A stretch of DNA of 64,000 nucleotides from Allocoprobacillus halotolerans. GTDB taxonomy: Bacteria > Bacillota_I > Bacilli_A > Erysipelotrichales > Coprobacillaceae. The position numbers and the translations under genes were made by a program. How positions within the stretch are numbered: the stretch's first letter is position 1; the number at the start of each line of letters is the position of its first letter. Location of the stretch: contig NZ_CP101620.1 of NCBI RefSeq assembly GCF_024399475.1, positions 1,159,608-1,223,607 on the forward strand. Direction: 5' to 3'. The notes beneath the pieces are model-generated. The model ran no database searches and was not told the origin of the DNA. It was given only the letters and a program-made list of their open reading frames with translations. Of this stretch, positions 5,955 to 60,747 are shown in pieces.

Positions 5955-7532
5955 ATGGATAAAAAGAAATTAATACAATTTCGTAATATTGTAAAAGATT
6001 TTGATGGACAAATTGTTTTAAAAGGTGTCAACCTTGATATTTATGAAAATGAATTTGTGACTTTATTAGGTCCAAGTGGTTGTGGGAAAACGACATTATT
6101 AAGAATTTTAGGTGGTTTCTTAGATGCAACTGAAGGAGAAGTTGTCTTTGATGGTGAAAACATTGAAAAAGTACCACCACATAAAAGAGAATTAAATACA
6201 GTTTTTCAAAAATATGCTTTATTTCCTCATATGAGTGTTTATCAAAATATTGCATTTGGTTTAAAAATCAAAAAAATGAGTAAAGACGTTATTGAACAAA
6301 AAGTTATGAAAATGTTGAAGTTAATAGGATTAGAAGGTTATGAAAATAAAAACGTAACACTTCTTTCTGGAGGACAACAACAACGTGTGGCTATTGCGAG
6401 AGCTTTAGTCAATGAACCAAAAGTTCTATTATTAGATGAACCATTAGGGGCATTGGATTTAAAACTAAGAAAAGAAATGCAATATGAATTAAAACGTATT
6501 CAACAAGAAGTTGGGATTACATTTATCTATGTCACTCATGACCAAGAAGAAGCATTAACAATGTCTGATAAGATTGTGGTTATGAAAGATGGGGAAATTC
6601 AACAAGTGGGAACACCTCAAGAAATTTATAATGAACCACAAAATAGATATATTGCCAATTTCATTGGAGAAAGTAATATTATCCCAGGGGTGATGTTAGA
6701 AGATTATAAAGTGAAATTTGATGATATTGTTTTTGATTGTGTTGATTTTGGTTTTAAAGAAAAACAACCTGTGGATATTGTCATTCGTCCTGAAGATATT
6801 GATATTGTCGATGTAGAAAAAGGGAAGATGACAGGGGAAGTGTTAAGTGTTTTATTTAAAGGTGTCCATTATGAAGTGATGGTAGAAACTGTTCCAGGAA
6901 CAAGTGTGACAGTGAATATGCATGTCATTAGAAATCGTGATGTCACTTCAGAAAATGGTAAAGAAAAAATCAGTGCCAATGATTTCTATGTGGACATTGA
7001 AGATGTGAAGGCTTTAGATGATGCTGAAATTATTGCTCGTGCAGACGCTCAGGCATGGCATCCTGAAGCAGATGATTATATTTCAATTAGTAAAATTGAA
7101 TATGATTTAAAAGAAGAAGTGGGAGAATATCCAGTGGTGTTCTCAACATCTTCAGGAACATCTGTAGAACGTAAGATTATTGTTGTTAATCAACCAGTTG
7201 TTAAAAATACGAAAGCGAATGAAGGGGTTATGGCATTTAACTTCTTTAAAACAGTGGATGAACTTGATGAATCAGTAGCTTTAGATACAGATTTAAAAAC
7301 ATGGGCTAATGCTCAAGGATGGAAATTAAATGATGAAGATGAATCTGTTGATATTTATGTTGATTATGATTTTGATCCTGAACATATTGAAGAAGGAACA
7401 TATAAAGTAACTTTCTCAACTGAAGGTAGAGAATTAAAGATTCATACAACAGATTTTGTGGAAGAAGGTAAAGAGGTCGGTTTAACATTCTTCCCTGAAG
7501 ATATTCATGTAATGGAGAAAATGGAATTCTAA
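5955..7532 (+). CDS. potA: Spermidine/putrescine ABC transporter ATP-binding protein PotA with inserted domains
   Basis: Residues 1 to about 240 are a standard ABC ATPase: Walker [10 protein letters not shown], signature [14 protein letters not shown], Walker B VLLLDEP and the switch histidine in [13 protein letters not shown] segment with VIRPEDI follows. The protein is 526 residues, against about 350-380 for most PotA. About 150-170 extra residues form two related beta-rich, Ig-like modules ([18 protein letters not shown] and [17 protein letters not shown]) before a closing [18 protein letters not shown], so the TOBE domain seems to be interrupted. I choose the ATG at 5955 because AAGGGAG lies seven bases upstream. 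Its stop overlaps the potB start. Confidence 0.88.
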
Positions 7533-8373
7533 TGAAACGTTTTTCTCAACTTGCATGGCCATATATGATATGGGTTATCTTAATGATTTTATTACCAATG
7601 TTATTGATTCTTGTGTATTCACTCACAATACAAGGTAATGATATTGTTAATTTTACCTTTACATTGGCGCATTTTAAAAAATTCTTTACCGACCCAGATT
7701 TTTTATTAGTTTTATGGCGCTCACTCACAATTGCAATTAAAACAACAATTATCTGTGTGATTTTAGGTTATCCAGTTGCTTATTTTATCGCAAGAAGTAG
7801 TGATCGTGTACGTAATATTTTTGTTTTAGCAATCACTCTACCAATGTGGATTAACATGTTAGTGAGAACTTATGCATGGATTGGGATTCTTTCAGATGGA
7901 GGCATTGCGCAAACAATTTTAGGATTTTTGGTTTAAAAGATATGGAACTGCTTTATACAGAAGGTTCAGTGCTCCTTGGAATGGTTTATAACTTTATTCC
8001 ATTTATGATTTTACAAATTAATACATCTTTATGTAAGATGGATAAATCTTTATTAGAAGCCAGTGCTGATTTAGGAGCAAACAAAGTGCAGACATTCTTA
8101 CGTGTCACATTCCCATTATCTTTATCAGGAGTTGTTAGTGGGATTACACTTGTATTTTTACCAGCTGTGAGTTCTTTCTTTATTCCTAAGTTACTTGGTG
8201 GAGGACAATTCTTCCTCATTGGAAATGTTATTGAAAATCAATTTATTACAGTTGGAGAATGGAACTTTGGTAGTGCTATTTCTATGATTATGGCTGTGAT
8301 TATGATGGTGTGTATGTACGCTATTAGAAAGATTGATGAACGTAATAGTGGAGGAGGAAGTCAAGAATCATGA
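7532..8373 (+). CDS. potB: Spermidine/putrescine ABC transporter permease PotB, frameshifted
   Basis: This is a membrane permease with about six transmembrane segments. It starts [20 protein letters not shown], and the EAA-type loop (EASADLGANKVQTFLRVTFP) lies in the second part and contacts PotA. The frame stops at 7936 after ...AQTILGFLV, while another frame continues as FGLKDMELLYTEGSVLLG to 8373. Adding one T to the T5 run at about 7924-7928 joins them without loss. PotB is essential for the importer and both halves are fully conserved, so a sequencing error is likely. The start overlaps the potA stop and the end overlaps the potC start. Confidence 0.82.
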
Positions 8374-14342: not shown

Positions 14343-15476
14343 ATGAGTTTAGAGATATGTTTATCATTTGTTGTGACTTTCATATTGAGTTTAATTCTTG
14401 TTCCAACGGTAGGAAAAGTATCAAAACAACTTGGGATTATTGCTCATACAAATAAAAGAACAATTCATAAAGGTGTGATTGCTAGAACGGGTGGATATGG
14501 CATCTATATGAGTTTTTTAATAGGAACAATGATTTTTTTAAAGACGGATACACAAATTAATGCCATGTTAATTGGTGGATTTATTATGTTTTTAACAGGA
14601 TTTTATGATGATATTCATGATTTATCCCCTAAATTAAAATTATTAGGTCAAATTATTGCTGCATTGGTTGTCATTATTTATGGAGATATTGTTTTAAAAG
14701 GCTTTTCGTTACCTTTTTTACCAGACTCTGTGTCCTATATTTTTGCAATCATGATTACAATATTGTGGATTGTAGGTATTAGTAATGCAATTAATTTAAT
14801 TGATGGTTTAGATGGTTTATGTGCTGGTATTTCAATTATTGTTTTAGTCACAATATCTTTAACATCATTGACTTATGGCCGTAGTGATATATCATCACTT
14901 TCCTTACTTTTAGCTGGTGCCATTGGAGGCTTTCTGGTTTTTAATTTTCATCCAGCATCTATTTTCTTAGGTGATTGTGGTGCTTTGTTTATTGGCTTTA
15001 TGATTGCAGTTATTTCCTTGCTTGGATTTGGTTATAAGAGTTCTTCTTTCTTTACTTTAGGAGCACCGATTGTTGTTTTAATGGTGCCTATTATGGATAC
15101 TTTTATTGCGATTATTCGTCGTAAAGTTCATCATAAAAGTTTTAGTGAAGCTGATCGTAATCATCTTCATCATAAATTAATGTTTTCATTAGAACTAGGA
15201 CAAACCAAAAGTGTCTTGATTTTATATGCTGTGACAGTTTTATTTTCTTTATGTTCATATCTTTATTTATTTGATAAAGTTGGAGCTACCATTCTTTTTA
15301 TTGCACTGATGCTTTTATTTGAATTATTTGTAGAAGCAACAAATATGATTGATCGTAAGTATAAACCATTTTTAACAATCCTTAATATTTTTATTAAGAG
15401 TGAATACTTACCATCTATTAAAGATACAAAACCTTATCAAAAGATTATTCAAAAAGCGAAAAAAGATATGCTGTGA
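14343..15476 (+). CDS. Undecaprenyl-phosphate sugar-1-phosphate transferase (TagO/WecA/MraY family)
   Basis: This is a 377-residue integral membrane protein with about ten hydrophobic helices. It carries the family motifs FYDDIHDLSPKLKLLGQ (DDxxDL), AINLIDGLDGLCAGI (NxxDGxDGL), FHPASIFLGDCGALFIG and NHLHHKL. This family transfers GlcNAc- or MurNAc-1-phosphate to undecaprenyl phosphate on the inner membrane face, the first step of teichoic-acid or polysaccharide assembly. Because it is not in a dcw cluster, TagO/WecA function is more likely than MraY. GAAAGGAG precedes the ATG. The next small gene overlaps its 3' end. Confidence 0.85.
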   Translation: MSLEICLSFVVTFILSLILVPTVGKVSKQLGIIAHTNKRTIHKGVIARTGGYGIYMSFLIGTMIFLKTDTQINAMLIGGFIMFLTGFYDDIHDLSPKLKLLGQIIAALVVIIYGDIVLKGFSLPFLPDSVSYIFAIMITILWIVGISNAINLIDGLDGLCAGISIIVLVTISLTSLTYGRSDISSLSLLLAGAIGGFLVFNFHPASIFLGDCGALFIGFMIAVISLLGFGYKSSSFFTLGAPIVVLMVPIMDTFIAIIRRKVHHKSFSEADRNHLHHKLMFSLELGQTKSVLILYAVTVLFSLCSYLYLFDKVGATILFIALMLLFELFVEATNMIDRKYKPFLTILNIFIKSEYLPSIKDTKPYQKIIQKAKKDML

Positions 15477-16035
15477 TATTAATTATTGTGATTGGAATTG
15501 TTTTTTCATTAGTATTTATCTTAAATAATGAAGAAAAAGCTGTACCACAAAAAAAGTTACTATTGAATATGTTGAATTATCAAATGAAACAAGTTTAATG
15601 AGTGATATTTATAATCAGTTAGTAACAGCTATTAATCGTGGAGATAAAAAGACGGAAAGACAATTGGTTGCTGCTTATTTTGTAAGTGATTATTATACTT
15701 TATCTAATAAAGAAGATGGTAAAATAGGAGGTATAGATTATTTCTATGCTGATAAAAAAGATGATTTTACAGCCTATGCACAAAATGAATATTATAAAAA
15801 GAATCAATCATATGTCAGTTTGCCTGAAGTTGTACGTTATGATATTTTATCCAATACGTCATCTTACAAAGCTTTATCTGGTTTAGAGGATTATAGTTAT
15901 TATGATGTGGAAGTACAGATTACTTTTAAAGAGAATAATCCTATTTTAAATGCAACACAATATATAACAACCGTGACTTTAATTGAAAAAGATCAAAAAT
16001 TCAGTGTCATAGCCATGGAGAGTGACAATGGATAA
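15473..16035 (+). CDS. Membrane-anchored hypothetical protein, frameshifted
   Basis: From a GTG at 15473, overlapping the end of the TagO-like gene, the frame encodes a hydrophobic anchor (VILIIVIGIVFSLVFIL). It then stops at about 15597 unless one A is added to the A7 run at about 15549-15555, which joins it to the frame that runs to 16035 (VTIEYVELSNETSLMSDIYN...). The mature part, about 165 residues, is soluble and rich in tyrosine and acidic residues, and looks extracellular. I do not recognise a domain. The true start could lie slightly further upstream in the same frame. Confidence 0.55.
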
Positions 16036-16396
16036 ATTTTTATGGGTAGGGCTAGGTGGTGCCCTTGGCGCAATCTTAAGATATTCTATAAGTTTATTAC
16101 CTATGAAAAGTTCCTTTCCTATTTTAACTTTTATTACAAACTTAATAGGTGCTTTTATCATTGGTATGGTGGTGGGATTATTTGAAAAACATTATCTTTC
16201 TTCACAACTCAATCTCTTTTTGAAAACAGGAGTATGTGGAGGATTTACAACTTTTTCAACTTTTTCACTAGAAGCTTTAAGTCTTTTCGAAAATGGAAAG
16301 TTTATACTTGCAATACTTTATATCTTCATGAGTGTTGGTGGTTGTATAATAGGTGTTTATATAGGAAAAATAGTTGTTGGAATGAGAGCCTTTTAA
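16028..16396 (+). CDS. crcB: CrcB/FluC fluoride channel
   Basis: This 122-residue, four-helix membrane protein has GGALGAILRY near the N-terminus and CGGFTTFSTFSLE in the middle, the signatures of Fluc fluoride channels. These act as antiparallel dimers that expel fluoride. Only one gene copy is seen, consistent with a homodimer. I start it at the ATG at 16028 (GGAG seven bases upstream), which overlaps the end of the preceding gene; the GTG at 16022 is less likely. I see no fluoride riboswitch upstream. Confidence 0.88.
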   Translation: MDKFLWVGLGGALGAILRYSISLLPMKSSFPILTFITNLIGAFIIGMVVGLFEKHYLSSQLNLFLKTGVCGGFTTFSTFSLEALSLFENGKFILAILYIFMSVGGCIIGVYIGKIVVGMRAF

Positions 16397-16411
16397 AAGG
16401 TTCTTTTTTTC
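16385..16411 (+). terminator. Terminator after crcB
   Basis: AGAGCCTTTT and AAAAGGTTCT form a hairpin overlapping the crcB stop codon, followed by a T7 tract. Confidence 0.8.
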
Positions 16412-16462
16412 TTTAAACTCATTTCATATTGGTATATAATGGGAGCGTGAAAGTTTATGAAT

Positions 16463-16615
16463 TTGTTGGTTGGAAATAGAAATATTTCATGAAAATGGAA
16501 GCAGGTGTAAATCCTGAGCTGTCCCGCAGCCGTGAAAGGAAGTCAAAGCGAGATACCACTGGGAAACTGGGAAGGTGCTAAGACGTTGAACTTGAGCCGG
16601 AATACATGCCAACAT
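16463..16615 (+). ncRNA. Cobalamin riboswitch
   Basis: The leader contains, in order, the conserved cobalamin-aptamer elements: GGAAGCAGGTGTAAATCC, GAGCTGTCCCGCAGCCGTG, the B12-box-like ATACCACTGGGAAACTGG with GAAGGTGCTAAG, and the closing GAGCCGGAATACATGCC. It lies 90 to 240 bases before the start of the terpene-cyclase-fold gene. It indicates that this gene and the two that follow are switched off by adenosylcobalamin or another corrinoid, and so probably serve corrinoid acquisition. Confidence 0.95.
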
Positions 16616-16661
16616 CTTGGAATACACTTTACGGAGTATAAAGTCGTTCTAGTATCAATTT

Positions 16662-16683
16662 AGGGTAATATACCTTATTTTTG
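16662..16683 (+). terminator. Probable riboswitch expression-platform terminator
   Basis: AGGGTAATATACCTT is followed by ATTTTTG, a short hairpin with a T tract between the aptamer and the first gene. A second small hairpin around ACTTTACGGAGTATAAAGT (from 16626) lies just before it. This suggests control by transcription attenuation. Confidence 0.55.
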
Positions 16684-16706
16684 TCTAGAGGAATGAGGAG
16701 GACAAA

Positions 16707-17837
16707 ATGAAGAAAATTTTTACAAGTTTATTAATCATGTTGATGATGGTGATAGGACAGATTTTTCCTGTATCAGCATTATCATATGACGAAAGTTATA
16801 CACTTGCAAAATCTTATTTTGAAAGTGTAAAATCATTTCAATCAGTGGATGAAATCATTGCGAGTGAATCTGTTGGAGTCGAATCAGATGATATTGCGAT
16901 TCCTAAAGGATTGCTTGAAACAGACACAGCATCATTGGTTGCGAAAGCGATTATTGCGTTGACTTTACATGGTGATGATCCAAGAAATTATCAGGGTATG
17001 AATTATGTTGAATTGTTAGAATCAGCTATTAATGAAGATGGATCAGTTCGTTTTGACAGTGAAACAAATAGTTTTGGTTCAAACAATCAAATATTTTGTG
17101 TGTATGCTTTATACATTGTTGAATCAGATAAACTTGAACTTGCAGCCAATTATTTAGCTTCGATGATTCAAGATAATGGTTCATTTACATATGCTGGTGG
17201 TTATGAAGATTTATCAGTTACAGGATGGGCAGTTGAAGCATTGTGTTTAGTTAATAAAACACAATATCAATCAACAATAGAGAAAGCTTTAACAAATATT
17301 CTATCTTATCAAAAAGATGATGCTGGGTTTGATATGTATGGATATGGTGCTGATGCGAATACGCAATCATCAGTACTTACTGGATTATTAACATATGATA
17401 GTGAAGGTGTTAAAGCTGGAAAATATAATCAAAATGGAAATAATCCTTATGATGTTTTATTGACTTTCCAAAATACTGATGGAAGTTTTTGGTCAGAGTA
17501 TACAGGAATTGGTCAATATAATTTATTAGCAACTGTACAAGGTGTACAAGCCGTTGGATATTATTATCATGGTTCTGTTTATACAAAAGCAAAAGATGAA
17601 TATTTTGCTTTAGGTGAAGTCAAAGATACAGAAGAGCCTGAAGTAAAAGTAGATGAAGAAGAAAAAGATGTACCAAAAACAGAATCTCAAAATGAAACAA
17701 AACAAGAAACTGTAAAAGAAACATCAAAGAAAGCAGATGTTGTTCAAACCAATGATTCTTCATGGTTATTAGGTTATGGTTTATTATTTATTGGAAGTGG
17801 AATACTCTTATTGAAAGGAAGAAAGTATTTTGAATAA
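16707..17837 (+). CDS. Surface-anchored terpene-cyclase-fold (transcobalamin alpha-domain-like) protein
   Basis: The 376-residue protein has an N-terminal signal peptide ending near PVSALS. A repeated alpha/alpha-barrel region with prenyltransferase/squalene-cyclase-type repeats follows (QDNGSFTYAGGYEDLSVTGW, DADANTQSSVLTGLL-like segments, QNTDGSFW), then an acidic/Gln-rich spacer (about residues 305-345) and a C-terminal membrane helix with a basic tail (LLGYGLLFIGSGILLLKGRK). QTND sits just before the helix and loosely recalls a sortase sorting signal. The alpha domain of transcobalamin and intrinsic factor has this fold. Position directly after a B12 riboswitch supports corrinoid binding. 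GAGGAGG precedes the ATG. Function is inferred, not proven. Confidence 0.75.
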   Translation: MKKIFTSLLIMLMMVIGQIFPVSALSYDESYTLAKSYFESVKSFQSVDEIIASESVGVESDDIAIPKGLLETDTASLVAKAIIALTLHGDDPRNYQGMNYVELLESAINEDGSVRFDSETNSFGSNNQIFCVYALYIVESDKLELAANYLASMIQDNGSFTYAGGYEDLSVTGWAVEALCLVNKTQYQSTIEKALTNILSYQKDDAGFDMYGYGADANTQSSVLTGLLTYDSEGVKAGKYNQNGNNPYDVLLTFQNTDGSFWSEYTGIGQYNLLATVQGVQAVGYYYHGSVYTKAKDEYFALGEVKDTEEPEVKVDEEEKDVPKTESQNETKQETVKETSKKADVVQTNDSSWLLGYGLLFIGSGILLLKGRKYFE

Positions 17838-18501
17838 AACAAAGAAATATACACTTGTTTTTATTGTTGTATGCTTTGTTTTGATTGGTGGAGCAGGTAT
17901 TTATCATGCCTGCTTTGCACCAAGTCAAACATCTCAGCCAGTTGTAAAAACACCTGTTGAACAAGAAGTGATTGAACAGGAAGAAAAAACAGAACAAGAA
18001 AGTAAACAAGAAACTGAAAAATCTCAACAGACTCCTATATCAAAAGATAAGGAATCAATAACTCAAAAACAAGAATCCCAAACAACACAACAGACAGAAA
18101 CAACTTCACCAAGTAAAACAGAAACTTCAGAAGAAGAAACAACACCATCTCATTCGACAGAAACAGAGGAAGAAACAGAGATAGAAGAAGTGTCATCTGT
18201 TAATGTGACAATTACAGGTGTTGATAGTGTTATGGCTCAAGATTATATCGAATTTGAAGAAGGTATGAGTGCTTACGATGCACTAAAAATATTAGCTGAT
18301 AATTATGATATGTCAGTAAAAGTTTCTGGAGTTGGTCAAGCTGTTTATGTCAAAGGTATTAATGGACTCAATGAGTTTGATTATGGTGGTCGTTCAGGAT
18401 GGAAGTATAAAGTCAATGGATCTTATCCAAGTGTTGGAGCAGGTTCATATGTTTTAAAAGATGGTGATCAAGTTGAGTGGATCTATTCAACAAATGGATA
18501 A
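17830..18501 (+). CDS. Membrane-anchored DUF4430 (transcobalamin beta-domain-like) protein
   Basis: The 223-residue protein has an N-terminal membrane anchor (about residues 7-27), a long Gln/Glu/Thr/Ser-rich spacer (about 36-118) and a C-terminal domain of about 100 residues (VNVTITGVDSVMAQDYIEFE ... GGRSGWKYKVNGSYPSVGAG). This matches DUF4430, the fold of the small beta domain of transcobalamin and intrinsic factor. It overlaps the preceding gene by eight bases and the ECF gene by eight bases. With the upstream alpha/alpha-barrel protein it would make a two-part clamp around a corrinoid at the cell surface. The disordered spacer would let it span the wall. Confidence 0.75.
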   Translation: MNKTKKYTLVFIVVCFVLIGGAGIYHACFAPSQTSQPVVKTPVEQEVIEQEEKTEQESKQETEKSQQTPISKDKESITQKQESQTTQQTETTSPSKTETSEEETTPSHSTETEEETEIEEVSSVNVTITGVDSVMAQDYIEFEEGMSAYDALKILADNYDMSVKVSGVGQAVYVKGINGLNEFDYGGRSGWKYKVNGSYPSVGAGSYVLKDGDQVEWIYSTNG

Positions 18502-18996
18502 AGTTAAAGAAATAAGTTTAATTGGTATTTTAGCGGCAGTTAATATTGCTTCACGTATTGCTTTACAAGCTTTACCTAATATTAAACCCGTGACTTCCAT
18601 TATTATTATTTCAGTCATTGTTTTTGGATTAGCGTTTGGTATTAAACTGACACTTGTGACAACACTTGTATCCAATATGTATTTAGGTATGGGAATTTGG
18701 ACATTTTTTCAAATACTTGCATGGATAGCCATTTGTTTATTGACACAATGTGTTGTAGATATTTATAAAAGAAGAGATAAAAAGCCATCTCTTTTGGTGA
18801 TGGCTATTTTTTCTATGTTGATGGGTTATGTTTTTGGTTTTGTTGTTTCTTTAGAACAATTTGTTGTAGGGGGTTACCTTTGTTTATTGTTTATTATAGT
18901 GCTGGGTTGTTGTTTGATACTTTCCATGCGATAGGGAATTTATTTTTTTATCTCATTGGAGCACCGTTGTTATTTAAAATTTTTCAATATGTGTAA
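18494..18996 (+). CDS. ECF transporter S-component, probably for corrinoid, frameshifted
   Basis: The hydrophobic protein starts MDKVKEISLIGILAAVNIASR and has the ECF S-component look: about six membrane helices, each turn short, with no ATPase or permease domain of its own. The frame runs to 18934, but the conserved end (SAGLLFDTFHAIGN ... YLIGAPLLFKIFQYV) is in another frame ending at 18996. Adding one G to the G5 run at about 18869-18873 joins them (about 168 residues). It would dock onto the shared EcfA/EcfT module, encoded elsewhere. The B12 riboswitch upstream points to cobalamin or its precursors as substrate. Confidence 0.75.
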
Positions 18997-47094: not shown

Positions 47095-47891
47095 AACTAA
47101 AAACACATTTATGGGATGGTTTAATTCTCTTTATTATTGCAGCATTTTTAGTTGTCCCACTTGCATTAACCTTCCTATATTCCATCTTTACAGCATGGAC
47201 GGATATATTACCAACTGGTTTTACATTAAGTTTTTATACACGTATCTTTACCGATGGATCATTTATCAATTCATTATTAAGATCATTAATTATCTCTTTT
47301 GTACCAGTTTGTATTTGCAGTTTTTCCATATTACTTGTGTTATATGTCATGACACTGTATATGCCAAAACTTGAAAAATACATCGAAATCCTTTGTAATA
47401 TTCCTTATGCTATACAAGGTGTTATTCTAGCAGTTGGAATTATTTCACTCTATTCAGGAAAGCCAGGATTTTTATCCAATCGTCTTTTCCTGCTTGTAGG
47501 AGCTTATTGTATTATCATCTTGCCATATACATTTCGTGGTTTAAAAAACACTATTAGTGCATTAAATGTCAAATGTGTAGTAGAAGCAGCTCAAGTTTTG
47601 GGATGTTCACAACTTCATGCTTTCTTTACTATAATTATTCCACAAATGAAAAATGGGATTATCTCAACCATGATGTTAGCATTCACAATGTTATTTGCCG
47701 ACTTCGTTGTTGTTAATATGATTGCAGGAAGTGCCTTTAGAACAGCAGGAATTTACTTATATCAAACAATGTCAAAATCAGGACAATTATCAAGTGCAAT
47801 AATCGTTATATTATTTATCACAACATTCGTTATTTCAACATTTACATTAATGATTCAAAACAAAGCAATCGCAAAGAGGAGGAAAGATTAA
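47091..47891 (+). CDS. ABC transporter permease (second)
   Basis: This 266-residue protein has about six membrane helices and the EAA loop VVEAAQVLGCSQLHAFFTIIIP. It overlaps the first permease by four bases and shares its last base with the start of the ATPase gene. It forms the channel with the first permease. Confidence 0.86.
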   Translation: MKLKTHLWDGLILFIIAAFLVVPLALTFLYSIFTAWTDILPTGFTLSFYTRIFTDGSFINSLLRSLIISFVPVCICSFSILLVLYVMTLYMPKLEKYIEILCNIPYAIQGVILAVGIISLYSGKPGFLSNRLFLLVGAYCIIILPYTFRGLKNTISALNVKCVVEAAQVLGCSQLHAFFTIIIPQMKNGIISTMMLAFTMLFADFVVVNMIAGSAFRTAGIYLYQTMSKSGQLSSAIIVILFITTFVISTFTLMIQNKAIAKRRKD

Positions 47892-48909
47892 TGGCTTATA
47901 TAGAATTTAAAGATATATGTAAAAGCTATGATGGAAAAAATCAAATCTTAAAAAATATACATTTAGATATTGAAGAAGGAGAACTTGTCACATTATTAGG
48001 ACCAAGTGGTTGTGGAAAATCAACATTATTACGTTCACTTGCTGGATTAGAACAAATTGATTCAGGAAGAATTATCTTAGATGGTCAAGATATTACAGAT
48101 GTTCCTGTTCAAAAACGTGGAATTGGTATGGTCTTTCAACAATATTCATTATTTCAAAATATGAATGTTGAAGATAATATTGCTTTTGGATTAAAGATAG
48201 CGAAAATGGATAAAAATCAGATTGCTCAAAAAGTACAACGTGCTATTAAAATGGTTGATTTAGTAGGCAAAGAAAAAGTTATCCAAGTGAGTTGTCTGGT
48301 GGACAACAACAGCGTGTTGCGATAGCTAGAGCCATTGTTATGGAACCAAAAGTCTTATTATTAGATGAACCATTAAGTGCTATTGATGCAAAACTTAGAC
48401 GTGAACTCCAAGAAAAAATCAAACGTGTTCAAAAAGAATTAAAAATTACAACAATCTTCGTTACCCATGATCAAGATGAAGCGATGATTATGTCAGATAA
48501 AATTCATTTAATGAAAAATGGTATTATTGAACAAAGTGGAAATCCAGTACAATTATACACACACCCTGTATCAAAATTTGCTGCTGAATTTATAGGTCAT
48601 TATAATATCTTAGATAATCAACAATTACAAACACTTTTACCTCAACATCGTTTTGATAATCATTATTATGCGATTAGACCAGAAACAATATTATTACAAA
48701 GTGAACCTATTCAAGATAGTCAAATGTATGTTTTTGAAGCTGTTGTGAATCATTATATATCAAGAGGAAACGTATTACGATATACATTAAGTTGTCAGGA
48801 TGTTGTTTTAAAATCAGAAGCTTTATTTAGAAGTTTTACGTTGTTTGATGAAGGACAAAAAGTCTATGTTGGTATTGAACCACATAATATATTAGAAATT
48901 AGGGATTAA
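47891..48909 (+). CDS. ABC transporter ATP-binding protein, frameshifted
   Basis: It has Walker [20 protein letters not shown]-loop VFQQYSLFQ, signature [14 protein letters not shown], Walker [16 protein letters not shown], a switch VTHDQDEA and a short C-terminal TOBE-like part ([12 protein letters not shown]). The first frame stops at 48325 and the second covers the signature onwards. One A added to the A5 run at about 48273-48277 gives ...[15 protein letters not shown]..., a canonical junction, for about 339 residues. Sequencing error is likely. A terminator overlaps the stop. Confidence 0.82.
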
Positions 48910-56444: not shown

Positions 56445-57266
56445 AAATATTCATACTAGTATGAATATATTGACTTTAGTCAGTTGAGCATACAAAGTAT
56501 GCGAAACAAAAAACCACCTGCTATGCGGGTGGAGCGATAAAAAGTTATACAAAATATCACCTTTCCATTATAATGAAAGTGTTCAAGCTATCATTATAGG
56601 AAAGGAAAGGTGATAAAGTATGGCTCAAAAAACAAATTCTTTGGCACATACGAAGTGGATGTGCAAATATCACATCGTCTTCACTCCAAAGTATAGACGA
56701 AAAGTGATTTATAATCAACTAAGAAATGATATAGGAGAGATATTAAGGACATTATGCCGATATAAAGGAGTAGAAATCATAGAAGGGCATCTGATGGCAG
56801 ATCATGTCCATATATTAGTGATGATACCACCAAAATTAAGTGTATCATCATTCATGGGATACCTAAAAGGAAAATCGGCACTGATGATATTTGATCGACA
56901 TGCAAATCTGAAATATAAATATGGAAACAGACATTTCTGGGCAGAAGGATATTATGTGAGCACAGTGGGATTGAATGATGCAACGGTCGCAAAATATATA
57001 AGGGAACAAGAGCGACATGACATAGCGATGGACAAACTCAGTGTGAAAGAATATCAAAATCCATTTGAAGACAGAGAAATAGAAAAAGAGAAGAAAAAAC
57101 AGGAGAAAAAGAAAAAGACAGTTAAGAAAGAGAAATAATCCCTTTGAGGGATAGCGAGAGTCAAAAGCGATAGCTTGAACGAAGTGAAAGCAGCGCCTTT
57201 AGACGCGAGCAAGTAACAAAGGCTTATAGTCGCAGAGAAAACCACGCCTTTTAGGCGTGGTTTTTA
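56445..57266 (+). mobile_element. IS200-like element, copy 1 (intact)
   Basis: The element has a palindrome at its left end (TATTCATACTAGTATGAATA), further hairpins (CCACCTGCTATGCGGGTGG) and a right-end hairpin (ACCACGCCTTTTAGGCGTGGT). A near-identical second copy starts at 57270. Only two single-base differences caught my eye (near 56729 and near 57231). The boundaries are approximate. Confidence 0.8.
56620..57138 (+). CDS. tnpA: IS200-type Y1 transposase TnpA (intact copy)
   Basis: The 172-residue protein has MCKYHIVFTPKYRRKVIYNQ, the HUH motif in LMADHVHILVMIPP and the catalytic-tyrosine helix VAKYIREQERHD. The last 25 residues are Lys/Glu-rich (KEKKKQEKKKKTVKKEK), beyond the usual core. 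AAAGGTGAT precedes the ATG. No tnpB is present. This copy is undamaged and may supply activity for copy 2. Confidence 0.9.
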   Translation: MAQKTNSLAHTKWMCKYHIVFTPKYRRKVIYNQLRNDIGEILRTLCRYKGVEIIEGHLMADHVHILVMIPPKLSVSSFMGYLKGKSALMIFDRHANLKYKYGNRHFWAEGYYVSTVGLNDATVAKYIREQERHDIAMDKLSVKEYQNPFEDREIEKEKKKQEKKKKTVKKEK

Positions 57267-57444: not shown

Positions 57445-57691
57445 ATGGCTCAAAAAACAAATTCTTTGGCACATACGAAGTGGATGTGCAAATATCACAT
57501 CGTCTTCACTCCAAAGTATAGACGAAAAGTGATTTATAATCAACTAAGAAATGACATAGGAGAGATATTAAGGACATTATGCCGATATAAAGGAGTAGAA
57601 ATCATAGAAGGGCATCTGATGGCAGATCATGTCCATATATTAGTGATGATACCACCAAAATTAAGTGTATCATCATTCATGGGATACCTAA
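57445..57691 (+). pseudogene. tnpA: 5' part of the split IS200 transposase gene (copy 2)
   Basis: It encodes the first 82 residues (MAQKTNSLAHTKWMCKYHIV to FMGYL), including the HUH motif, then reads into the transposon. The remainder lies at 61236-61507; 247 plus 272 bases add up to the 519 bases of the intact gene. Confidence 0.88.
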
Positions 57692-57933
57692 TGTTAAACC
57701 GAAAACTCTACAAAATCAATTTAGATGAAAAACCGCAGATTAATATAATCAAAAGGATATAAGATTTGCCGTTAGAAACCGCAGTTCTTATATCCTTTAT
57801 CTGTTTTTTGATTTATAATATTCTATGTGTTATTTATTTTGACTGATTTTTTTAATCTTAAGAAAGGAAAAAGAGAAAAGATAGGTTCAGTTTTGCAGGC
57901 TCAATCTCATCTTTTCTCCTGGGTTCATCTTTG

Positions 57934-58646: not shown

Positions 58647-59987
58647 ATGAACAAACAGAATACTGATCGTTACGAGTACAGAAAACTCGTTGCACAGGTC
58701 AAATTTTCACTTATTGCACCTGTCGTTTCGGCTACATTTACGGATATATCCGCTGAAGCCTATTTTAGGCGTGTTTCCAAGAATGAGGTCGATTGGCCCG
58801 ATGGTACCAGAAGAAAGTTTTCTGCTGTAACTTTAAAGAATTGGCTTTATATTTATAGAAATTGTGGATTTGATGAACTGATGCCTAAAGATCGTCTGGA
58901 TGCCGGAAGAGTCAGGAAGCTGGACAATCGCCATAAAGATTTTATTAGCGATATGATCAAGGAATTCCCTAAAGTGACAGGCGTCATGATCTATGAAAGA
59001 ATGATTGAAAAGGGGCTCCTCAACGTAGGTGATGTATCGGTAGATACTGTTCAGAGGTACATTAAAAATTCAGGATTGCGTCATGGGTCAAAACCTGTCA
59101 CAAAAGAAAGACGTACATGGGAATTTGCTCATTCATGTGATGGATATGAAGCGGATACCTGTCATACCTTTTATATTTTTGATGAAGCCGGTGAGTACAG
59201 AAAAACTTATCTGATTGCCATCATCGATAATCATTCAAGAATGATAGTTGGTGCTGAATTCTTTTTTAATGATAATGCCGTTAATTTTCAGAAGGTATGG
59301 CATGATGCAGTACTAAGATATGGGAGAAGTAAGATGATCATCCTTGACAATGGATCAAGCTACAAAAATAAAAGCACCAAGGAGATAGAAGCAAGGCTGG
59401 GCACAAAAATCATCTACAATCCACCTTATTCACCGGAAGGAAAGGCCGTTATTGAAAGGTTCTTTTCTACCATCAAGATGAGATGGATGAATGGGGATCA
59501 TGGAAGCCATTATCATTCATTGACCGAGCTCAATATGAGATTAAAAAGTTGGATTAACGAATATAACCGTACCCCTCATTCTTCACTGAAGGATGACATT
59601 CACGACAATCACACTCCATTGGAAAGATACATGTACGATATGAAGGACGTGGAGGTATGTCAGCTATCCAATAAATCATCCGTTGAATACAGAGCCTGGC
59701 TTGACGATGTGTTCATGCATGAAACGACACGTAAGGTAAATGGAGATTCAACCGTATTGATTGAAAATGTTTTATTTGATGTTCCGTCCATTTATATCGG
59801 GATGAGGGTAATCATTCGATATGATCCAAGAACTTTTGAAAATACCTATCTGTATGATATATCCGAAAAAAGAAAGTTCCAATCAGTAGGACAGATAAGG
59901 TTGAAAACGGAAGGACAAGAAGAGAGGAGATTATTTATTAATGGAAATGACAACGTATTACGGAATGGACAGAAATCCATTTACTAA
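58647..59987 (+). CDS. TnsB/Mu-type DDE transposase
   Basis: The 446-residue protein has an N-terminal helix-turn-helix region (FSAVTLKNWLYIYRNCGFDE) and an RNase-H-like integrase core with D in YEADTCHTFYIFD, D in MIILDNGSSYKNK and E in PPYSPEGKAVIERFFSTIK. A C-terminal beta-barrel region (VLIENVLFDVPSIYIGMRVI) is typical of TnsB/MuA-type enzymes. GGGAGG precedes the ATG. It overlaps the ATPase gene by 47 bases. It would cut and join the TGT/ACA ends. Confidence 0.85.
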   Translation: MNKQNTDRYEYRKLVAQVKFSLIAPVVSATFTDISAEAYFRRVSKNEVDWPDGTRRKFSAVTLKNWLYIYRNCGFDELMPKDRLDAGRVRKLDNRHKDFISDMIKEFPKVTGVMIYERMIEKGLLNVGDVSVDTVQRYIKNSGLRHGSKPVTKERRTWEFAHSCDGYEADTCHTFYIFDEAGEYRKTYLIAIIDNHSRMIVGAEFFFNDNAVNFQKVWHDAVLRYGRSKMIILDNGSSYKNKSTKEIEARLGTKIIYNPPYSPEGKAVIERFFSTIKMRWMNGDHGSHYHSLTELNMRLKSWINEYNRTPHSSLKDDIHDNHTPLERYMYDMKDVEVCQLSNKSSVEYRAWLDDVFMHETTRKVNGDSTVLIENVLFDVPSIYIGMRVIIRYDPRTFENTYLYDISEKRKFQSVGQIRLKTEGQEERRLFINGNDNVLRNGQKSIY

Positions 59988-60747
59988 AGATACAATGATT
60001 AAAACATTATATGAATCTAATGATTTTAAACAGATGACGAACCGATTGGAATTTATCATCAAATCAAGAGGAATCGGTGTATTTTTAAGCAATCCTGGGA
60101 TGGGAAAGACCACATGTCTGAGAAAAACATTGGAATCTCTCAACCCCAATCGATATGTAGTAATCTATATCTGTATGACAACGATTACAGCCATAGATTT
60201 TTACAGAATGCTTAATGATGCACTGGGGCTTGAAGAGATGACAAAAAAGTCGAAGATGTTTCAAGCTATCCAGGATGAACTGAGAAGATTGACAGTAGAA
60301 AACAAAATGGAAGTCATTATAGCGATAGATGAAGCACAATTTCTCAGAAAAGAAGTGCTTAGAGAATTCATCATGCTTATGAATTTTGATTATGATTCAA
60401 AAGATTACTGTACACTGATATTCGTAGGGCAGAATGAATTTATAAGAACACTGCGACTTAAAGTCCTGGAACCATTTAGACAACGTATCAATATGAATTA
60501 TACGTTTACAGGATTCAATGAAGAAGAAGTAAAAAATTATGTGGAATCACGTTTGGAATCGGTCGGTTGCCGAACAGACCTGTTTACAAAAGAAAGCTAT
60601 CATACACTTTATACACTGATGAATACCTCCGTCAGGATACTCAATCAGATCATCAGTAAGAGCCTGATATTAGGAATGCATTATAAAAAGGATATCATTG
60701 ATAGCGAACTGATCATGGAAGCAGGCAAGGAATTAATGATAGGATAG
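59941..60747 (+). CDS. AAA ATPase of the transposon (TnsC/TniB/ExeA-like)
   Basis: The 268-residue protein begins MEMTTYYGMDRNPFTKDTM, the ExeA/TniB-type start. It has Walker A FLSNPGMGKTTCLRK, Walker B VIIAIDEAQFLRKE and sensor TLIFVGQNEF. Such ATPases activate the DDE transposase and choose the target DNA. It overlaps the transposase gene and is followed after five bases by the last gene. Confidence 0.85.
   Translation: MEMTTYYGMDRNPFTKDTMIKTLYESNDFKQMTNRLEFIIKSRGIGVFLSNPGMGKTTCLRKTLESLNPNRYVVIYICMTTITAIDFYRMLNDALGLEEMTKKSKMFQAIQDELRRLTVENKMEVIIAIDEAQFLRKEVLREFIMLMNFDYDSKDYCTLIFVGQNEFIRTLRLKVLEPFRQRINMNYTFTGFNEEEVKNYVESRLESVGCRTDLFTKESYHTLYTLMNTSVRILNQIISKSLILGMHYKKDIIDSELIMEAGKELMIG

Follow-up and report, generated by a model that had tools for sequence, protein, structure and literature searches.

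How does a gut bacterium that requires but apparently cannot make vitamin B12 capture and import it? The question is raised by three genes behind a cobalamin riboswitch in a stretch of 64,000 nucleotides from Allocoprobacillus halotolerans, hereafter the window. For many human gut genomes, the B12 transport systems are described as still awaiting identification (PMC6593275). Substrate capture in ECF transporters is described as the task of the S-component itself (PMC5997447), which makes an added capture protein unusual. We consider it likely that the locus is a B12 (corrinoid) scavenging operon, in which a split transcobalamin-type surface carrier and a CbrT-type importer feed the methionine synthase MetH; its organism probably captures and imports B12. 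The computational evidence comprises the riboswitch, the folds of the two surface proteins, the homology to CbrT, a conserved gene linkage and a MetH-only genome.

Rfam search revealed one cobalamin riboswitch in the 2.93-Mb single-contig genome, which covers model positions 1-189 of 189 with an E-value of 3e-23 (threshold 31.5 bits; Table 1). It is followed by three genes, each successive pair of which shares 8 bp, in agreement with the riboswitch and overlapping genes of the original prediction, which was made from the sequence alone. Upstream, the promoter-like site lies directly after a terminator-like hairpin (16384-16405), itself 3' of crcB, so that the riboswitch seems to open a separate transcript. 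A folding test for the expression platform gave a z-score of 0.08 and assigned none.

Table 1. Coordinates of the riboswitch operon in the window, and of fused toroid-DUF4430 proteins at three Ruminococcus loci (positions within each locus).
Feature	Position	Strand	Basis or remark
Sigma-70-like promoter TTTAAA-17-TATAAT	16412..16440	+	Consensus scan; matches about as many as chance expects
Cobalamin riboswitch aptamer RF00174	16450..16627	+	97.9 bits, full-length match, single genome copy
Secreted alpha/alpha-toroid protein (gene 1), C-terminal sorting/anchor segment, 376 aa	16707..17837	+	AlphaFold2, VIA-align, TIGR03063
Membrane-tethered DUF4430 protein (gene 2), 223 aa, TTG start, low-complexity spacer	17830..18501	+	PF14478, AlphaFold2, VIA-align
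Predicted CbrT-type ECF S-component (gene 3), N-terminal part, frame-broken	18494..18934	+	phmmer against 6fnp_A, E 1.3e-13; family profile, E 6.9e-32
S-component, conserved C-terminal part, other frame	18868..18996	+	GLPLFIVYYSAGLLFDTFHAIGNLFFYL... to stop; aligned by eye with relatives' C-termini
Ruminococcus fusions	L180 1318-3306; L181 1492-3336; L182 1438-3336		Few kb from CbrT-like S-component

The second gene product begins with an N-terminal transmembrane segment, followed by a spacer of ~90 residues and a DUF4430 domain (encoded at about 18268-18489) that matches PF14478 with 66.1 bits against a cut-off of 23.8. The AlphaFold2 model of this domain has a pLDDT of 92.2. Its comparison with known structures by VIA-align gave a Z-score of 15.6 for haptocorrin over 102 residues at 2.4 Å, 13.5-13.8 for intrinsic factor, 12.8-13.8 for transcobalamin and 12.7 for the R. 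gnavus structure 3u7z, and the next fold beyond these reached 8.8. The beta domains of the carriers align with the model across 100-105 residues, that is, the whole domain, and Foldseek agrees with the VIA-align ranking. As modelled, the DUF4430 domain has the beta-grasp fold of the transcobalamin beta domain type. The relation rests on structure, since in a PDB search the DUF4430 profile matched transcobalamin-2 with an E-value no better than 2. The transcobalamin-type SLBB domain has a conserved aromatic residue within an insert that precedes strand 3 (PMC1949818), and an invariant Tyr, seen in the alignment only, occupies position 60 of the DUF4430 alignment, flanked by the helix and the GWxY strand. 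Some relatives have lipobox-like N-termini by eye, for example at loci L104 and L106, in line with an outward tethering. A membrane-tethered DUF4430 protein with a transcobalamin-type fold, as originally claimed, is thus upheld by the transmembrane segment, the family match and the structural alignments.

The product of the first gene carries a visible signal peptide, weak matches to the toroid families Prenyltrans and SQHop_cyclase, and a C-terminal match to the sorting-signal domain TIGR03063 (20.4 bits, curated cut-off 18.15). Its AlphaFold2 model, spanning residues 26-311, has a pLDDT of 93.5 and consists of ~12 main helices. VIA-align ranks squalene-hopene cyclase and drimenyl diphosphate synthase first, with a Z-score of 22.4, and the alpha domain of intrinsic factor aligns with a Z-score of 18.4 over 230 residues. 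According to the model, the protein has the six-barrel fold common to transcobalamin-type carriers. As terpene cyclases match at least as well, the fold alone is not specific to a B12 carrier; structure matches place it in sugar-acting enzymes too. The terpene-cyclase-type alpha/alpha barrel, the signal peptide and the C-terminal anchor foreseen earlier therefore stand.

Neither a PDB profile search nor PF01122, the eukaryotic cobalamin-binding family, linked the toroid directly by sequence to the animal alpha domain. The PDB search with the toroid alignment returned mainly cyclases and prenyltransferases, and no transcobalamin chain up to an E-value of 10. PF01122 matched neither the toroid protein nor any of 25 relatives among the families listed for them, and nothing scored above its cut-off across 392 genomes of the phylum; Bacillus sp. 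T33-2 gave no more than a sub-threshold match. The one sub-threshold match inspected in the phylum scan, at locus L186, was rejected, as the open reading frame there is cysteine-desulfurase-like by eye.

The third gene encodes a predicted S-component homologous to CbrT of the B12 transporter structure 6FNP. Chain 6fnp_A would be CbrT itself, judging from the chain length, the name 'Membrane protein' and an ECF S-component match. Compared to the truncated sequence of the window, an intact relative matches this chain with a stronger E-value of 2.7e-21. The start at 18494 is assigned by homology, the mechanical start of the open reading frame being 18461. The frame is uninterrupted in the aligned CbrT-type relatives. 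Of the S-component gene originally claimed, the identity is supported by the CbrT homology, but the frame is not intact and ends at 18934; the end at 18996 given earlier holds across the frame change only. CbrT was reportedly predicted in a 2009 paper. ECF-CbrT imports both cobalamin and cobinamide (PMC5997447).

The host genome encodes MetH, and searches with single families in this genome (97.9% complete) found no match for MetE, CobS or an FecCD-type (BtuC-type) permease. As far as these searches go, methionine synthesis in the organism relies on imported corrinoid. One EcfA-EcfA-EcfT set lies beside truA, and the operon is the sole corrinoid uptake route detected in the genome.

Linkage of the three genes was surveyed in 295 genomes of the host's order, where a riboswitch was counted if it lay at most 6 kb upstream of DUF4430 on the same strand. 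DUF4430 homologues do not lie consistently away from B12 riboswitches, a pattern named beforehand as evidence against the proposal: a cobalamin riboswitch stands upstream at 52 of the 103 DUF4430 places in the order, and 26 of the 28 cobalamin riboswitches in the host family sit 174-1872 bp upstream of DUF4430. By our own estimate from genome length, chance would put a riboswitch at such a position in ~1 genome in a thousand. One of the two remaining family riboswitches is near a contig end, with a toroid start beside it (G069:C187). Among the 51 DUF4430 places without an upstream riboswitch, we counted 36 whose fetched locus includes a CbrT-like S gene. The other 15 have neither and mostly encode proteins of 320-390 residues, so that DUF4430 proteins as a group are not linked to B12 alone. 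DUF4430 proteins of 322-354 residues, without an upstream riboswitch or S neighbour, are found at loci L203, L206, L207, L209-L212, L214 and L215. Eleven host-family genomes with a DUF4430 place gave no cobalamin riboswitch match, and a rescan of six riboswitch-less loci at permissive Rfam settings revealed no hidden cobalamin riboswitch.

The same three-gene order behind B12 riboswitches, for which a search had been suggested along with the original prediction, recurs in other genera. In addition to riboswitch-toroid-DUF4430-S, we found the arrangements riboswitch-DUF4430-EcfT-like-ABC ATPase-S-toroid and, in Sharpea and Kandleria, metF-activase-metH-toroid-DUF4430-S. The trio lies 3' of metF, an activation-domain gene and metH at loci L145, L146 and L148 (Sharpea, Kandleria), L111, L112 and L117, and no cobalamin riboswitch match was obtained at these six. 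Of the 26 genomes of the order with a toroid match, we counted 16 in which the riboswitch leads the operon and 6 in which the genes belong to a metH operon; the remaining 4 show neither context. In the neighbouring family, DUF4430-S adjoins metF-activase-metH without the toroid, with the riboswitch present or absent, and many relatives there have DUF4430 and the S-component only, which makes the toroid dispensable in some cases. Riboswitch-led, toroid-less operons at loci L106 (3973-6000) and L107 (6789-9001) end in a protein of 676-737 residues, which at L106, the one checked, has a PQQ-type beta-propeller and an N-terminal part that by eye resembles a DUF4430 domain; it might stand in for the toroid.

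Beyond the order, a contig scan with the CbrT alignment identified 55 CbrT-type loci in named genomes, of which 41 have DUF4430 and 27 have the toroid. In all 27 toroid loci, the toroid is adjacent or fused to DUF4430, with three fusions. Bacillus sp. T33-2 has the order riboswitch-toroid-DUF4430-CbrT, and a Clostridium sp. MAG (with a weak toroid match of 20 bits) and an Oscillospiraceae MAG have toroid-DUF4430-CbrT behind RF01482 (AdoCbl) riboswitches. The fusions occur in three Ruminococcus MAGs as single proteins of 614-662 residues with the toroid N-terminal and DUF4430 C-terminal. This is the domain order of transcobalamin, but a long linker and an apparent membrane segment lie between the halves; one fused protein searched against the PDB gave no match of note. 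The existence of such fusions in other genomes speaks for joint action of the two halves. At locus L155 (1265-5938), a Christensenella DUF4430 protein of 1557 residues is encoded 3' of an AdoCbl riboswitch and adjoins a CbrT-like gene.

These data provide a framework for how the operon might work. We propose that the riboswitch permits expression when B12 is scarce and turns the operon off when it is plentiful. The C-terminally anchored toroid would serve as the alpha-like half of a carrier, and the DUF4430 protein, with its N-terminal membrane anchor and long flexible spacer, as the beta-like half. Together they may grip a corrinoid outside the membrane and then hand it on to the CbrT-type S-component, which would work with the shared EcfA-EcfA-EcfT module encoded elsewhere in the genome. 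The imported corrinoid would then feed MetH, the sole methionine synthase found.

In the main alternative, DUF4430 would by itself be the corrinoid-binding partner of CbrT, and the toroid an accessory such as a wall spacer, adhesin or docking element that makes no contact with the ligand. The neighbouring family fits this, as DUF4430 and S usually occur there without the toroid and often behind a riboswitch; the toroid fold is generic, and there is a crystal structure of the transcobalamin beta domain on its own with cyanocobalamin (5np4). However, the toroid lies beside or is fused to DUF4430 at every toroid locus beyond the order, with three fusions in the transcobalamin order, and it keeps invariant residues; we regard this alternative as unlikely. 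The surface pair might instead bind another ligand, corrinoid-related or not, such as cobinamide, a cobamide variant or a wall sugar. Import of cobinamide by CbrT (PMC5997447), the sugar-acting enzymes that share the toroid fold, and the 15 DUF4430 places with neither riboswitch nor S-component all leave room for such a ligand, yet the riboswitch, CbrT and the MetH linkage, which also support the corrinoid uptake role as first claimed, all indicate corrinoids; a different ligand is thus distinctly unlikely.

A reading of the toroid as a terpene-cyclase-like enzyme that is secreted and has no B12 role is scarcely credible. Its top structural matches, the two cyclases with Z-scores of about 22, are what such an enzyme would give, but the protein contains no DxDD, the catalytic motif of type II terpene cyclases, its signal peptide and sorting signal put it outside the cell, and its linkage to DUF4430 and CbrT is fixed. 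The one-frame break inside the S gene could also mean that the system is decaying in this strain and that the gene is truly broken, to which we give only a small chance. Both upstream genes are intact, and other conserved genes are split alike: the gene at 14343-15476 and 15598-16035 occupies two frames here compared to a single open reading frame of 564-569 residues in several relatives, and MetH lies in two pieces in this assembly (at ~95 kb of the contig, locus L003) compared to 791 residues in a relative. As these two genes are split likewise, the break in the S-component frame most likely stems from an indel error in the assembly. In the window, two more transporter genes (7532-8373 and 47891-48909) appear as overlapping out-of-frame halves, possibly split by the same kind of error.

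Compared to the scavenging operon proposed here, the animal carriers transcobalamin, intrinsic factor and haptocorrin have a similar beta-grasp domain (Z-scores 12.8-15.6) and, as aligned for intrinsic factor (Z-score 18.4), a similar alpha/alpha barrel, and both domains are fused in Ruminococcus too. They differ in combining both domains in one chain, with cobalamin sandwiched between them, in contrast to the two separate anchored bacterial proteins, putative corrinoid binders; moreover, the toroid lacks the PF01122 similarity of the animal carriers, and the bacterial trio is set apart from them by its riboswitch and the linked ECF importer. Burroughs et al. (2007) grouped the animal transcobalamin beta domains with secreted proteins of Gram-positive bacteria, described toroid fusions and ECF-type operons, and proposed B12 scavenging and a transfer to animals (PMC1796856). 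Their SLBB transcobalamin-type clade resembles the trio in its secreted DUF4430/SLBB proteins, often with a toroid, in operons with ECF-type ATPase and CbiQ; it has fused toroid-SLBB proteins and paralogous pairs, compared to split genes here. The full text of that paper, which is earlier than the proof of CbrT, makes no mention of a riboswitch (PMC1796856). As suspected at the outset, our literature search, with thin coverage of subscription journals, found no biochemical study of the trio proteins, but the general idea of B12 scavenging by bacterial toroid and beta-grasp proteins had been put forward as a prediction in 2007 (PMC1796856). A split arrangement linked to both a cobalamin riboswitch and a CbrT-type importer seems not to have been described.

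Among other bacterial systems, ECF-CbrT of Lactobacillus delbrueckii (6FNP, PMC5997447) has the S-component to which gene 3 is homologous; its cluster is nrdJ-cbrS-cbrT-pduO, and the available part of that paper describes no surface capture proteins (PMC5997447). BtuG and BtuH of Bacteroides are likewise extra surface B12-binding proteins that act before the importer (PMC6977713, PMC8941943), but BtuG is a beta-propeller and both serve an outer-membrane TonB system, unlike the trio. We tentatively suggest, with slightly less than even confidence, that the operon represents an ECF importer family with a dedicated two-piece surface-tethered clamp, of which animal transcobalamin would be a fused descendant or relative.

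The window also contains mobile elements. Two IS200/IS605-type transposase open reading frames (56620-57138 and 57445-57762) are identical over the first ~80 residues, the second being shortened. At 58647-60747, an integrase-type transposase reading frame is followed by an AAA ATPase reading frame, an organization that resembles two-protein transposition modules.
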